Below, one piece after another: positions 37,429 through 44,678 of a stretch of 64,000 nucleotides of DNA. This stretch comes from Anaerolineae bacterium. GTDB taxonomy: Bacteria; Chloroflexota; Anaerolineae; DRVO01. The notes beneath the pieces are model-generated. The model was not told the DNA's origin. It worked only from the letters and a program-made list of their open reading frames with translations, and did no database searches. Where the stretch lies: positions 59,906 to 123,905 of the forward strand of contig JABLXR010000016.1 in assembly GCA_013178015.1 (NCBI GenBank). The letters are read 5' to 3'. Made by a program: the position numbers and the translations under genes. Within the stretch, counting starts at the first letter, position 1, and each line of letters begins with the position of its first letter.

Positions 37429-38553
37429 CTAGGCTCGGCCGCGACGGCCTCGGGGCAGCACTATCAGCAGGCCGAACCCGGCGATCAGCACTCCCACCAC
37501 GGCCACGATGAACCACATGGACCCGAAGAAGCCCGATTCGGCGGGGCTGGCGCCCGCATCAACACGCGCCGGCGCACCCGTCGACGCGGGCGTGCCCTCC
37601 GCCGCCAGCGCCTGCTTCACCGGGGTGTGGGTTGCCGTGGCTCCATCTGCGCTTCCTCGGATGGTCTCGGGTACGGGGGTAGCCGTGAGGGGGGTGGCCC
37701 TAGCGGGCATGAGCGTAGGCGTGCCGATGGGCGAGTCCGACATGGCGACGACGCCGGCCTCCCGGGTCGGCGGGGATAGGGGAGACTGAGACCAGGTGCC
37801 GCTCTCTGAAGGCTGGCCCTCTGGGGTGACGGTGTCTTCCTGGGAGGCTGCGCTCTCGGTGCCCACGTCGAGGGTAGCCGTCGGCTCGGGTGGTGGGGTG
37901 GCAGTAGCCGGCTCGGTGGGCACCTCGGTGGGAGTCGGTTCGAGAGTGGCGGTGGGCGTGGGCTCGGCGAGCTCAGTCGTGGGGGTAGCCGAGGCCTCCG
38001 GCGGCGCCGGCACATCGCCCACGTACACCGTCGCCATTCGGGTGCGGGCGGGAGCACGGGCCAGCTCGGCGTCGAACAGGATGACCGAGCTCACCTTGAC
38101 CGGTACCTCGCCCTCTGCCTTCCCCCTGACCCTGAAGGTGGCCAGCACCCCTTCTCCGCTGGCCCCCTCCCGAGGTGCCTCCTGGGTGAAAGCCAGAGCT
38201 ACGAACCCCCGTTCGTTGTCCGCTTCGTTGTTCAGGACGATGTCGGGCTCCAGGAAGCCACCCACGAAAGTGGCTTGCACTCCTTCTTGGGCGGGGTCAT
38301 CGTCCAGGACCTCCAGCAGTCTGGCATCGAACTCAGCCTGCATCTCCAGAGCATACAGGTTGGTGGCCCCACGCACTACCACCTGTAGGGTGACCTCCTC
38401 GCCCACTCCGATGCGGATCTGAGCCGGCTCCAGGCTGATGGTGGCCACCTCCTGTGCCGCGGCCGACACCGGCCCCATCAGCGCTAGCGCCCAGAAGAGC
38501 GCCACCCACACCAACCACCTAACGATCGCGCTCACTCCACCACTGCGCCTCAT
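37429..38553 (-). CDS. Secreted cohesin-domain protein with Thr/Pro stalk and C-terminal membrane anchor
   Basis: A 374-aa surface protein. An N-terminal signal peptide ends near SAAAQE, followed by a cohesin-like beta-sandwich (ISLEPAQIRIGVGEEVTLQVVV through TRMATVYVGD, about residues 35-165), with the typical dockerin-fold-binding ALEMQAEFD and FTQEAPREGASGEGVLATFRV segments. A TPT-rich stalk of about 120 residues follows, then a TM helix (WFIVAVVGVLIAGFGLLIVL) and RGRRGRA. I see no dockerin protein in the window. ATG 38553 vs GTG 38559 is uncertain. It is separated from the upstream operon by terminator hairpins. Confidence 0.7.
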   Translation of the reverse strand: MRRSGGVSAIVRWLVWVALFWALALMGPVSAAAQEVATISLEPAQIRIGVGEEVTLQVVVRGATNLYALEMQAEFDARLLEVLDDDPAQEGVQATFVGGFLEPDIVLNNEADNERGFVALAFTQEAPREGASGEGVLATFRVRGKAEGEVPVKVSSVILFDAELARAPARTRMATVYVGDVPAPPEASATPTTELAEPTPTATLEPTPTEVPTEPATATPPPEPTATLDVGTESAASQEDTVTPEGQPSESGTWSQSPLSPPTREAGVVAMSDSPIGTPTLMPARATPLTATPVPETIRGSADGATATHTPVKQALAAEGTPASTGAPARVDAGASPAESGFFGSMWFIVAVVGVLIAGFGLLIVLPRGRRGRA

Positions 38554-38786
38554 CACCACACACTCCCGCGCGCCAGAATGGATCCCGTGTCCCCGTGGCC
38601 CTGCCTGCGGTCACCCAACCCAAGGTTACACGTACTCCGCCGGCGGCGCTAGCGAGCGCTGGCATATCCGCCGACTGGAGCAACCGGGCGGATCGGCGTC
38701 GTGCCGGGGACCGAGGGGCGTGTCGGGACCCATCCGGTGCCGAAGGGTGGGGACGTGCGAAGGACGCGTGAAAGAAAGAAAGCATA

Positions 38787-38964: not shown

Positions 38965-40965
38965 TCAGCCCTGATCGCCATCGTCTCCAGTGACCGGGTC
39001 GGCGGTCGGGGTCGGTGGCTCGGGCGTCGGAGTGAGAGGCACGGGCGTATCTGTCGGCGGCACCGGAGTAGGCGTCGGCGGCTCGGGTGTGGGTGTGGGC
39101 GGCACCGGAGTAGGCGTCGGCGGCTCGGGTGTGGGTGTGGGCGGCTCGGGCGTAGGCGTCGGTGGGGCCGGCGTCTCGGTCGGGGGTACCGGCGTGGGCG
39201 TCGGAGGCACCGGCGTCTCAGTGGGTGGCACCGGTGTATCAGAGGGTGGAACCAGGGTAGGCGTGGGCGGCACAGGGGTGTCCGTCGACGGGACCGCAGT
39301 GGGCGTGGGGGTCCCGGTGGGCGTGGGCGAGGCCGCTTGGGTGGGCATCGGCGTGGAGGTCGGCGTCGCGGAAGGCGGCTCGGGCGCCGGAGTGGCCGTC
39401 GGGACGGGCGTGGCCGTGGCCTCGGGCGTCGCCGTCGGCTCCACCGTGGGCACCGGCTCCGGCGTGGGCGAGGGCACCGTCGTGGCGGTCGGAGTAGGCA
39501 GGGGCGGCGCCTCCCCGGGAGTGGGTGTGGGCGTCTCCCAATCGGCAACCGGTGTCTGGGTCGCCGTCGCCGTCTCGGCGGAGGTCGGCTCGGTCACGGG
39601 CGTGTCCGTTGCCAGCACTGGCTCGGTAGGCGTCGGCTCGAGCGTCGCCGTAGCCGTCGGCTCCTCGGTGGGAACCTCCGCCGGCTCGGTGGCCGTGGGA
39701 GCGGGCAGCGTCTCGGTCGCGGTAGGCGCGACCGTGGCTGTGGGCGGAGACTGGGCGCCGGCGGGAAGGGGCAGGAGTTCGAACGTCAGCGGACCGAGCA
39801 GGTTATTGCCCCGGCTGACCTCCTCTATCTCCTCCACTTCGAGCCACGGGGCGTTGACCAGCACCCAGATCGTGTGACTCCCGGGCGCCAGCAGCACTTG
39901 CCCCCCATCCTCCGGTAGGAGCGCAGTGGCCCCGGCGTCGGAGTCGCCGTGCAGTACCAGCCGGGCCCGCGCACCGGCCTCCAGCCCAGGCACCAGCCAG
40001 TAGGCCGAGGGCGCGTCCGAGGGCGCGGGGGGCTGGGCCAGGTCGAAGTACACCGCCACCCCGAATCCGACGGCAGCGCCTGGACCGCCGTTGGCGATCG
40101 TCAGCTCCAGGTCCACCTCCCACCCTTCAGCCTGCGCCTCCAGAGGGCGGACGAAGGCCCGGGAGGGCCTCAGGTCGGGCAGGGGCGCCGGCACGGTGGG
40201 CTCGACCTCCTGCGGCGTCGGCACGGCGGTGTCAGTGATGCCGACCGTCGGGGAGGCCGGGGCAGGCTCGGCAGTCCCTTCGGGCGCCGCCGTCTCGGTG
40301 GCCTCACGCGTGGGCGTGGGGGTGGCGGTGGGCACCGGCGTCGGCGTGGGTGTGGCTGCGACCGTGGCAGTGGGGGCGGTGTCGAGCTCCGGCGCTGCGC
40401 CGGCCTCGGGATCGACGAGCCTGACCGTGTCCCTGCCGGCGAAGGGCCGGCCGTCCACCAGCCCCGAGACGGTGAAGACGACGTCCGCCGGAGGTTGGAT
40501 GTCCGCCACCAGGCCGATCACCGCCGCCCGGTCGAAGGTGACCTTGAGGTCGGGGATGCCGTCCTTGTCGGCGTCGCCCACCTTAGGCTTGCCCCCGCCG
40601 GGAAGACCGTCGGGAGGCACACATCCGCCAGCGAAGGGCTCCTGGAGGCAGAGAAGGAGGGTGGTCACGTCTATCTGGGCCACGTCGTGCTCTGGCGGGA
40701 GCTCGATGAAGGCGGTGACGGGGGAGCCCTGGCTCTTCTTCTCCAGCGACTCGGGCTTGAGGTCGAGGTCGGCGGCGATGGCGGTGGGTTCGGGTGTGGC
40801 GGTGGGAGTGCATGCAGGAGTGGATGTCGCGGTAGGCAGCTGTACCGTCACATCAATGACGAACGCCTGGATGCAGCCGCCATTCACCGCAAGCGAGGCG
40901 GCCGATGCCGTGACTGCGGTCATGGCCATCACGAACAGCAGGACGGCCGCCAGACGCCGGAGCAC
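38965..40965 (-). CDS. Large secreted Pro/Thr-rich protein with CARDB-like domain
   Basis: A 666-aa protein in four parts: a signal peptide (cleavage near TASA-AS, residue 22); a domain at residues ~63-187 with a calcium-like loop DADKDGIPD; a TPTPxP linker; a CARDB-like beta domain (~262-400: [35 protein letters not shown]); and a ~265-residue [14 protein letters not shown] tail. No sortase or TM anchor is seen. After cleavage the mature protein begins [12 protein letters not shown], like the small secreted protein at 42769. It starts 3 bp after the signal peptidase gene, so it is co-transcribed. Confidence 0.7.
38968..39756. repeat. Coding low-complexity tandem repeat (PTPTPEPP)
   Basis: The 3' ~790 bp of the preceding gene encodes 8-10-residue Pro/Thr periods; DNA copies around 39000-39260 are nearly identical 30-36-bp units such as GGCGTCGGCGGCTCGGG. 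Slippage variation is likely. Confidence 0.7.
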
Positions 40966-42768: not shown

Positions 42769-43233
42769 TCAGTGTTCACCCTCGATGTATAGCTCGATGC
42801 CGTAGATCGCCTGTGCGGGTACGCCGTGACCGCCAGAGACGTTGACCCCATTTGCGTCTGTCGGAGCAAGCTCTAGCTTGACCGTGCCCCCGCCGTCGGG
42901 GATGACGTATGCAGCCGGCACCACAGGAGCACCGCCATTCGTAAGGTTACCATTGGTACCGATCATCTGGCCGGTATCGCCCTCAATGCGGGCGACCATC
43001 CGGTTGCCGGCACACGCCGCATCGACGCCGTACACCTGGATTGAGGTAACAATGCCGTCATAGTTGACATTCCAGCTGACTGTCACCCCGTCATGATCGC
43101 AGACGAGCGCTGTGTCAGCCCCTGCCTGCACGGAACCACCTCCAACGCCCAGGTTGGCCGCTGAGGCGAAGGTGGCGCCCACTAGGACGGCCACAACCAC
43201 GACTAGAGATACAAGCCTGATAAGCCTAGACAT
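42769..43233 (-). CDS. Small secreted protein (SipW-dependent substrate-like)
   Basis: A 154-aa exported protein with no named family that I recognise. The signal peptide SLVVVVAVLVGATFASA ends at about residue 25; the mature N-terminus ANLGVGGGSVQAG parallels the Pro/Thr-rich protein at 38965. The mature domain (~130 aa) appears beta-rich with two Cys pairs possible. ATG 43233 has GGAGG about 5 nt upstream; the longer frame from 43422 has no support. As the first gene, with the strongest RBS, it is likely the major product (inference). Confidence 0.75.
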   Translation of the reverse strand: MSRLIRLVSLVVVVAVLVGATFASAANLGVGGGSVQAGADTALVCDHDGVTVSWNVNYDGIVTSIQVYGVDAACAGNRMVARIEGDTGQMIGTNGNLTNGGAPVVPAAYVIPDGGGTVKLELAPTDANGVNVSGGHGVPAQAIYGIELYIEGEH

Positions 43234-43630
43234 CGTTCCCTCCACTCGTCCTTTCGTACTGGTTGCCCTGAGACAGGCGCGACATCTGTGCCGCAATAGT
43301 GTCGCTCGCCAGGCGACATCTGGCCTTCCCCACCTCCTCACCCAGGGTCGCCGGGGTAAGGCCGGGCAGACAACGCGAGGACGCGCGCCTGACCTGCCTC
43401 GCCGCGGCCGCCAGGGCCGCACCGCTCACGGCGGCACGACCACCCGGACTTGGCCGGTCCCGCCGGGCAGCCGCGGGGCAGGAGCACGAGGAGGGATCCA
43501 CCGAGGGCGCCACTTGCGAACTGGACTGCAAGGGTTCACAATGGAGGCGCACAGGGAGGCCCACAAACCCACCCCGTGCACCGGCCTCGCGTGGCTGCCA
43601 CCATGCGGGGCCGTCTTTCACTCAAGCTTG
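43234..43630 (-). other. Long untranslated leader of the secretion operon
   Basis: If the promoter at 43631-43659 is used, the transcript has about 390 nt before ATG 43233. The region holds a 10-bp direct repeat GCGACATCTG (43279-43288, 43313-43322), a TGTCGC/GCGACA inverted pair (43300-43318), but no ORF that looks real. Confidence 0.4.
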
Positions 43631-43697
43631 ATACTACTGTATCACCTGAACGTCTTCAATACCTTACGAGCCCCAATGCATTAGAGAATCCTTAGAA
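43631..43697 (-). promoter_or_regulatory. Candidate promoter plus direct-repeat operator for the secretion operon
   Basis: On the minus strand, from the upstream end: TTCTAA-GGATT-CTCTAA (43697-43681), 21 bp, TTGAAG (43659-43654), 17-bp spacer, TAGTAT (43636-43631). The half-sites are 11 bp apart, one helical turn, as for OmpR-family regulators. The operator lies inside the 3' end of the regulator gene. Confidence 0.45.
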
Positions 43698-44386
43698 AAC
43701 CCCCCAGTTGGGCCGGCCTGGAATACGTATCCCCACTTCTTGCGCGTAAGTATGTACCGGGGGTGTGTCGGGTCCGGTTCCACCTTGTGCCGCAGATAGT
43801 GAACGTAGAGGTGCAGCCTACCGGCCAACTTCCTGTCCGCCGTGCCCCAAGTGGCCCGAAGCAGCTCGTCCGACAACACGATCTCTCCCGCACGCTGCAT
43901 CAGCGCCCCCAGCAGGCGCGTCTCGGTGGCCGTTAGCGCGCTGATCCTGCCGTTCACCGCTACCCTCCGCGCCGGCAGGTCCACCGTCACCACCCCGTCC
44001 GCGTATCGCGTCCTCCAGGGGTGGCCCCCCTTCACCCGGCGAACCAGGGCCTCCACGTGAGCGCGCAGGAGAGCGGGGCCGAACGGCCACACCAGCTGCT
44101 GGTCTGCCGCAGGCGATGGCCCCGAGCCGTGACCCTGTTCGGAACTCCGGCGCAGCAGCACCAGGAGAGGAACGTCACTGCCCTGGCGGATGCGGTCGCA
44201 GAGGCGCGAAGCATCCACCCCACCGTCGAGGAGATCTAGGATGACCACGTCGGGCTCGGCTCCGGCGAGATGCCGGCCGAGCTCCTCTAGAGAGCGGAAT
44301 TCTACTTCATGCGGACACTGAACCAGCCAACTACCGAGCACGTGCGCCCGGGCCTGATCGGCCCCGGCCAAGACAATCCCCGCCAT
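43664..44386 (-). CDS. OmpR-family winged-helix response regulator with degenerate receiver
   Basis: A 240-aa protein. The N-terminal domain resembles a receiver: VVILDLLDGG holds a candidate Asp51, but the acidic pair at the start is reduced and the conserved Lys-Pro is Trp-Pro, so phosphorylation is doubtful. The C-terminal wHTH (about residues 145-230) has the OmpR/PhoB pattern ALTATETRLLGALMQRAG, KLAGRLHLYVHYLRHKVEP and RYILTRKKWGYVF. ATG 44386 has GAGGAG 6 nt upstream. No adjacent histidine kinase; the neighbouring secretion operon has a matching operator. Confidence 0.82.
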   Translation of the reverse strand: MAGIVLAGADQARAHVLGSWLVQCPHEVEFRSLEELGRHLAGAEPDVVILDLLDGGVDASRLCDRIRQGSDVPLLVLLRRSSEQGHGSGPSPAADQQLVWPFGPALLRAHVEALVRRVKGGHPWRTRYADGVVTVDLPARRVAVNGRISALTATETRLLGALMQRAGEIVLSDELLRATWGTADRKLAGRLHLYVHYLRHKVEPDPTHPRYILTRKKWGYVFQAGPTGGFSKDSLMHWGS

Positions 44387-44611
44387 GCCAGGCTCCTCTA
44401 CTTCAGCAGACGCGCCACAGGTGCACGCATGAGCGCACTCGCGAGAGAGCGCGGGCTTCCGCCGCTCCCTGCGACTGATGGGCCGCGCCAGCAACGACGA
44501 AGAGGCTTCGTGCGAGGGGTAGACCGTCGGTGTCCGGCCAGCGATCAGGAGCGCCGGATCCTGCTGAAGGCGCCCCCAGACCCGCCTTCGTCCCCAGCTT
44601 CCCGAAAGCCA

Positions 44612-44678
44612 AGTGTACTCCAAGCTTACTCGAATGCAAGCACCTCAGGGCCACGAAAGTGTTAGAACTTCGTTAGAA
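44612..44678 (-). promoter_or_regulatory. Candidate promoter plus operator of the regulator gene
   Basis: On the minus strand: TTCTAA-CGAAG-TTCTAA (44678-44662), 22 bp, TTGCAT (44639-44634), 16 bp, TACACT (44617-44612). Total span from operator start to end of -10 is 67 bp, as at 43631-43697. It lies about 230 nt before ATG 44386. The rest of the 525-bp gap 44387-44911 holds a CCTATAACCTGTAACCTG-type microrepeat near 44870 and nothing else. Confidence 0.45.

Follow-up and report, generated by a model that had tools for sequence, protein, structure and literature searches.

Which protein reads the tandem TTCTAA-type repeats that stand upstream of an OmpR-type regulator gene and of a secretion operon in this member of the Anaerolineae, and how far do such sites extend beyond the locus? 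The term window denotes the whole stretch of DNA that was analyzed (64,000 nucleotides), and the regulator is designated Reg1. The features of the locus are collected in Table 1.

Two promoters with a common layout

In the promoter of Reg1 the operator (core TTCTAACGAAGTTCTAA, 44678-44662, minus strand) is followed by 22 bp, TTGCAT, 16 bp, and TACACT. The operator of the secretion operon (core TTCTAAGGATTCTCTAA, 43697-43681, minus strand) is followed by 21 bp, TTGAAG, 17 bp, and TAGTAT. The half-sites start 11 bp apart in both operators. The hexamers TTGCAT and TTGAAG are what we take to be -35-like boxes from the familiar consensus. On re-reading of the sequence, both sites and their spacings were found exactly as an earlier note had given them, and the 67 bp that it had counted from the start of the operator to the end of the -10 box holds for both promoters. 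A weaker TANNNT (TAAGCT) is also found at positions 51-56 of the Reg1 promoter, and the assignment of its -10 box is therefore ambiguous. The operator of the operon lies within the last codons of Reg1, which encode a C-terminal tail that is absent from most aligned relatives. This tail extends approximately 17 residues past the usual end of the domain (43664-43714 of the window), and its DNA contains the operator.

Table 1. Genes, operators, and promoter boxes at the locus (window coordinates)
Feature	Coordinates	Strand	Basis
Reg1, 240-aa OmpR/KdpE-like regulator, intact DNA-binding domain, degenerate receiver	43664..44386	-	Pfam, NCBIfam, alignment, structure-relative search
Operator 5' of the Reg1 gene, TTCTAAC-GAAG-TTCTAAC, slots 1 and 12	44661..44678	-	sequence, genome-wide pattern search, shuffles
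-35-like box TTGCAT, Reg1 promoter	44634..44639	-	sequence
-10-like box TACACT, Reg1 promoter, lattice positions 62-67	44612..44617	-	sequence
Operator 5' of the secretion operon, TTCTAAG-GATT-CTCTAAT, inside the 3' end of Reg1	43680..43697	-	sequence, pattern searches, shuffles
-35-like box TTGAAG, operon promoter	43654..43659	-	sequence
-10-like box TAGTAT, operon promoter, lattice positions 62-67	43631..43636	-	sequence
Small secreted protein, 174 aa, first operon gene, no Pfam or NCBIfam match	42769..43293	-	translation, Pfam, NCBIfam
Signal peptidase I, archaeal/SipW type, fused to DUF5305, 582 aa	40969..42717	-	Pfam, NCBIfam
Secreted Thr/Pro-rich repeat protein, 666 aa, weak sub-threshold Pfam match only	38965..40965	-	translation, Pfam
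Cohesin-domain protein, 376 aa, C-terminal membrane segment (by eye), probably last gene of the run	37429..38559	-	Pfam

The pattern TTCTAA-N5-YTCTAA occurs twice in the 64-kb window, and 100 dinucleotide-preserving shuffles gave a mean of 0.00 matches with a largest value of 0. There are 4 occurrences in the 4.57-Mb assembly, against 0 for the reversed-pattern control and approximately 0.06 expected, a value computed from the base composition of the window (66% G+C). The genome-wide scan that the earlier note had proposed thus places the motif well above background frequency. The scans were made as pattern searches with no full weight matrix, and degenerate sites may have been missed.

The winged helix of Reg1 (Trans_reg_C) scores 58.9 bits against a Pfam cutoff of 26.2, and its receiver domain scores 15.9 bits against a cutoff of 30.2. 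Because the receiver falls below its cutoff, Reg1 is filed as an atypical member of the OmpR/PhoB family. In the alignment the Asp of the receiver is kept, the acidic pair is altered, the Thr is changed to Leu, and the Lys to Trp; the full set of a canonical phosphorylated response regulator (acidic pair, phospho-acceptor Asp, Thr/Ser, and Lys) is not present. The NCBIfam KdpE equivalog, the second-best model, scores 88.5 against a cutoff of 325, and there is a weak Pfam match to GlnR_1st. One contig scan of named genomes gave 48 relatives, the best at 35-38% identity and with Anaerolineales and Chloroflexi assemblies among them, and no ortholog. Close to the gene of one relative, from Paenibacillus (L057), is a TCTAAC-like pair in tandem. 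No ortholog of Reg1 is found among the matches in genomes G001 (same genus, 93% complete) and G002 (same family, 80% complete), where the best paralogs are 44% and 41% identical, respectively.

The signal peptidase of the operon is of the SipW/archaeal type, with scores of 60.9 for sigpep_I_arch (cutoff 51.85) and 61 bits for DUF5305 (cutoff 29); its score of 30.4 falls short of the cutoff of 190 for the Bacillus SipW equivalog. Homologs of the operon were found in 13 of 150 genomes, this one included, and in neither G001 nor G002. The corresponding gene of G027 is split over two contigs. No operator motif was found in the 12 stretches examined around operon homologs or related signal peptidases. 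Conservation of the motif in orthologous regions, whose failure the earlier note had named as grounds for giving up its reading, therefore breaks down for the operon. Since the homologous loci carry no motif, the operator was probably gained at the secretion operon in this lineage, beside a young regulator.

Related sites in the genome, the family, and the class

The third exact copy of the motif in this genome (C18:70521) lies 5' of the gene for Reg2, a 228-aa OmpR-like protein, where TACAAT at positions 62-67 gives the same 67-bp layout. The fourth copy (C16:58244), just left of the window, precedes the gene for a DUF5658 protein; here TATACT appears at 51-56, one 11-bp turn closer, and a third half-site is present at 34. 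When one mismatch is allowed, 8 places are found in this genome (2 for the forward and reverse controls together). Several of these have a second layout, TTCTAAY-N4-TTCTAAY-N15-YTCTAAY-N10-TANNNT, and the last two half-sites with the -10 pattern are found at 6 places (control, 0). The genes behind these sites, identified by inspection of translations, include those for a secreted protein before a MoxR operon, a nearby TadE-like protein, and a large secreted protein; a protein with DUF11 repeats was identified with Pfam. The same inspection gave no convincing gene downstream of C69:2855, one of the 8 places, and only short, unconvincing first frames at the sites on C30 and C2.

Six sites with at most one mismatch were found in G001 and G002 together. 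This set is not clean, because the controls gave 2 matches in each genome. Two of the sites lie 5' of Reg2 orthologs, which here too diverge from an lpd-like gene, and the 67-bp layout is kept at both, with TAGAAT and TACAAT at 62-67. Further sites precede the ortholog of the DUF5658 gene in G001 and, in addition, the secreted-protein/MoxR operon and a Flp-pilin-like gene (G002). Reg2, whose operator promoter is thus conserved, has a degenerate receiver and no recognizable winged helix or recognition helix. A TTGACATAA-like element is present at positions 26-34 upstream of Reg2 in all three genomes (L006:8522-9308, L138, and L139).

Across the three family genomes, 14 sites deviate from the pattern by no more than one mismatch. 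TANNNT appears at 51 or 62 in 12 of them (8 at 51, 5 at 62, one with both), and the background rate at the other 70 offsets is 11/980, or 1.1% per offset. After removal of the three defining sites and with orthologs counted once, 5 of 7 sites fit the register (p ~1e-7); the two misses are the C30 site (TATAAT at 52) and the pilin-like site of G002 (none). Position 8, directly after the first half-site, is G in both window sites and C in all 12 other family sites. This split has a chance of 1 in 91, for a position that was chosen after inspection and a contrast that rests on two sites; it hints at a dedicated reader.

Among 86 distinct strict pairs in the retrieved loci, the position of TANNNT peaks at 51 (43 pairs), with 6 pairs at 62. 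Pairs further along an array give peaks at 40 and 29, and of the 47 strict pairs in which slot 34 is also occupied, 41 show TANNNT at 51. The YTCTAAY sites form an 11-bp lattice that is anchored to the -10 box. In G003 and G072, from another family, an array with the -10 box at 62-67 precedes the gene for a small pseudo-receiver protein, and the upstream layout therefore recurs before receiver-like genes in a second family. The small pseudo-receiver proteins of L116 and L117 in that family, with the same arrangement upstream, are 136-144 aa long.

With up to two mismatches, YTCTAAY at slots 1, 12, and 34 was found in 66 of 100 class relatives, and the reversed pattern gave 4 matches in 4 genomes. 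There are at least 74 class sites with no more than one mismatch, many of them orthologs from few families and thus not independent. Among the matches listed, a chaperone pattern (DnaK, Hsp20, GroES, or ClpB) is present within 1.2 kb downstream of 33 of 74 sites, these labels being short sequence patterns partly confirmed with Pfam. Sorted by position 8, again among the matches listed, 32 of 51 sites with a purine and 1 of 23 with a pyrimidine have a chaperone downstream (Fisher p 1.8e-6). Stricter patterns applied to 396 class genomes gave 38 purine places in 21 genomes and 10 C places in 8 genomes, with controls of 0. Thirty of the purine loci were retrieved, 20 of them new, and by pattern or Pfam 17 of these 20 have Hsp20, DnaK, HtpG, GroES, or Clp downstream; the remaining three have an HtrA-like protease, a small Cys-rich protein, and nothing clear. 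Three new C-type sites precede genes for a ClpB-like protein, pyruvate:ferredoxin oxidoreductase, and a response regulator. Because one of these three is a ClpB-like gene, the split between purine and C is not absolute, and its C side is thinly tested. Other C- and T-type sites precede genes for secreted proteins, an RHS protein, alkaline phosphatase, a sugar kinase, and response regulators; the alkaline phosphatase (L203, in G049) is the sole phosphate-related target seen.

Four-slot YTCTAAY arrays stand before Hsp20, DnaK, GroES, ClpB, and HtpG genes at L105, L108, L111, L121, L122, L174, L189, L276-L298, and others. Some chaperone operators (L174:7546, L178, and L225) exceed four slots, or run in opposite directions and overlap in the region between divergent dnaK and hsp20 genes. 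An OmpR-type regulator adjoins DnaK in several class genomes. Directly behind the heat-shock operators of L173, L178, L196, L294, and L304 is the gene for a small Cys-rich protein (~80-100 aa, CANCGI...YCC.GC..GGPC.CDY), with DnaK further downstream in several loci. The one such protein that was searched, that of L304, has no Pfam match. In nine Hsp20 loci of the three family genomes the best match was a single weak pair in G001, with 12 of 14 letters in agreement, and the heat-shock flavor is therefore unsupported in this family.

Candidate readers of the operators

On the sequence evidence the window sites are taken to be real OmpR/PhoB-type operators. The earlier note had proposed this, and the proposal is supported by the genome-wide rarity of the motif, its location on promoters, its fixed register to the -10 box, and the recurrence of the 67-bp layout 5' of another OmpR-like gene in three genomes. 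From the motif, register, distribution, and neighboring genes, all of which are observed, we infer the binding protein, the direction of its effect, and Reg1 as the reader. The reading we favor, with somewhat better than balanced confidence, is that both sites serve as operators in a regulon of the OmpR/PhoB family that is common to the class, and that Reg1 most likely reads both of them in an autoregulatory loop, by which it would drive the secretion operon as well as its own gene.

Autoregulation and control of the operon by the neighboring regulator, as the earlier note had suggested, appear plausible. Autoregulation has a precedent, because response regulators of the class (in G014, G075, and G008) carry such arrays 5' of their own genes. 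Other results do not fit a scheme confined to Reg1: the operon homologs examined are without the operator, several more loci of this genome carry it, which makes it not specific to Reg1, and it is present in G001 and G002 with no ortholog of Reg1 among the matches, so that another protein must read it there.

A phylogenetic tree placed the response regulators that adjoin DnaK operators (G029, G062, and G044) in one clade (100/100). The self-array regulators of G014, G075, and G008 group with G000_C8, G001_C357, and G002_C36 (88/89). Reg1 lies outside this clade, which counts against it as the reader, as does its degenerate receiver. It groups with G000_C54, G001_C333, and G002_C27 (90/99), and its branch is so long (3.05 changes per column) that its place is unsure. 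An LYxxYLR-like recognition helix is common to all; its variable position is T or N in the DnaK-linked regulators, R in the self-array group, and H in the Reg1 group, with H also in two members of the self-array group, a pattern that is no more than a lead. Tandem repeats 5' of regulator C35a (3 mismatches) were rejected as a further array, as the stretch is coding.

A serious rival, which we regard as possible though less probable, is that the sites are read by a conserved regulator shared within the family, for example from the C8/C357/C36 or the C54/C333/C27 group, and that Reg1 is no more than one of the targets, whose pseudo-receiver might make it a decoy or modulator. The operator is present in G001 and G002, where no ortholog of Reg1 was matched; each of the two groups is represented in all three genomes; and the self-array regulators share a clade with the first. 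Reg2 bears the operator with no recognizable recognition helix, and being a target therefore does not imply being a reader. The winged helix of Reg1 is intact, however, and both window sites depart from the family consensus at position 8. In addition, no array was found 5' of C8 or C357 in the search upstream of the regulators, in which absences are less firm for regulators on the minus strand.

It is very unlikely that the motif is the Pho box of this lineage, read by PhoB and responsive to phosphate. The Pho box is described as a 22-bp element of two 11-bp repeats with the consensus CTGTCAT (PMC2648988). The promoter of Escherichia coli K-12 pstS, fetched as a yardstick, carries CTGTCAT in slots 1 and 12, a degenerate version of it in slot 23, and CTGTCAC in slot 34, with TATTTT at 51-56. 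Slots 1, 12, 23, and 34 and the -10 box at 51-56 are identical in the array promoters of the class, head-to-tail 7-bp half-sites with 4 bp between them and a period of 11 bp are common to both, and one surface-type array precedes an alkaline phosphatase gene. The half-site, however, is YTCTAAY in place of CTGTCAT, the slots of the window promoters are shifted upstream by one turn relative to pstS, and the pst-like operon of this genome (L274) carries no motif at the thresholds used. Unlike those of the Pho box, the targets of the arrays are mostly chaperones, surface or secreted proteins, and regulators. Coincidence of the two window sites and their spacing is extremely improbable: one site does fall within coding sequence and the pair was picked out after the fact, but the shuffles yield no matches and the layout is found again at a third, independent locus (Reg2) and its orthologs.

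Proposed mechanism and comparison with known systems

With Reg1 as the favored reader, regulator monomers would occupy successive YTCTAAY half-sites in head-to-tail order with an 11-bp period, in an array held in helical register with the -10 box. The slots would lie at -61, -50, -39, -28, and -17 relative to the first base of the -10 box. Most promoters would use -50, -39, (-28), and -17, which cover the place of the -35 element as in E. coli pstS. In the window promoters only -61 and -50 would be occupied and a -35-like box is retained, and for this reason the regulator is probably an upstream, class-I-like activator in the window; activation from upstream is expected there by analogy with known OmpR-family activators. 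The regulon of this family would consist mainly of cell-surface and secretion genes, with an autoregulatory loop in the window in which Reg1 would drive the secretion operon and its own gene, perhaps from sites that a conserved paralog also uses. With the lattice as a direct and testable criterion, regulon members can be sought in a large group that is mostly uncultured and in which little regulation is known, and the locus may be a naturally occurring example of a young, degenerate regulator connected to an old operator network.

The evidence is evenly balanced on a wider proposal. In it, an OmpR/KdpE-type activator would control the main heat-shock genes of the whole class (Hsp20, DnaK, GroES/EL, ClpB, and HtpG) by reading YTCTAAY repeats placed on an 11-bp lattice that has Pho-box geometry and is anchored to the -10 box, the base after the half-site would split the code (purine for heat shock, C for surface and secretion), and the fast-evolving pseudo-receiver Reg1 would have captured the secretion operon one turn further upstream. 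The lattice suggests that OmpR-family activators may generally use Pho-box geometry to take the place of the -35 element, and that this geometry was reused for heat-shock and surface genes through a changed half-site. A literature search found no paper that lists the YTCTAAY motif or describes heat-shock control by an OmpR-type regulon in this phylum, a weak sign of novelty given that most subscription journals lie outside its coverage.

Among solved structures the closest relatives of Reg1 are those of KdpE (4KNY/4KFC). Reg1 differs from KdpE by its score below the cutoff and its degenerate receiver, and there are no kdp neighbors in the stretch listed. GlnR, ChxR, and HP1043 are atypical OmpR-family regulators with pseudo-receivers, and Reg1 resembles them in having a receiver fold with an incomplete phosphorylation site and an intact winged helix. 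The likeness shown is one of architecture, and their target sites are not known to resemble those found here.

The known routes of heat-shock control are those of HrcA, HspR, and sigma-32, and the heat-shock part of the proposal, if true, would be a departure from them. CIRCE, the operator of HrcA, is the inverted repeat TTAGCACTC-N9-GAGTGCTAA, whereas the class arrays are direct repeats. The orphan response regulator MXAN_4468 of Myxococcus controls groEL genes (PMC9040617); its likeness to the class arrays is that a response regulator beside a chaperone gene controls chaperone transcription. As described there, MXAN_4468 acts negatively, in part by helping HrcA to bind CIRCE, whereas the direct repeats found here are placed as activator sites.
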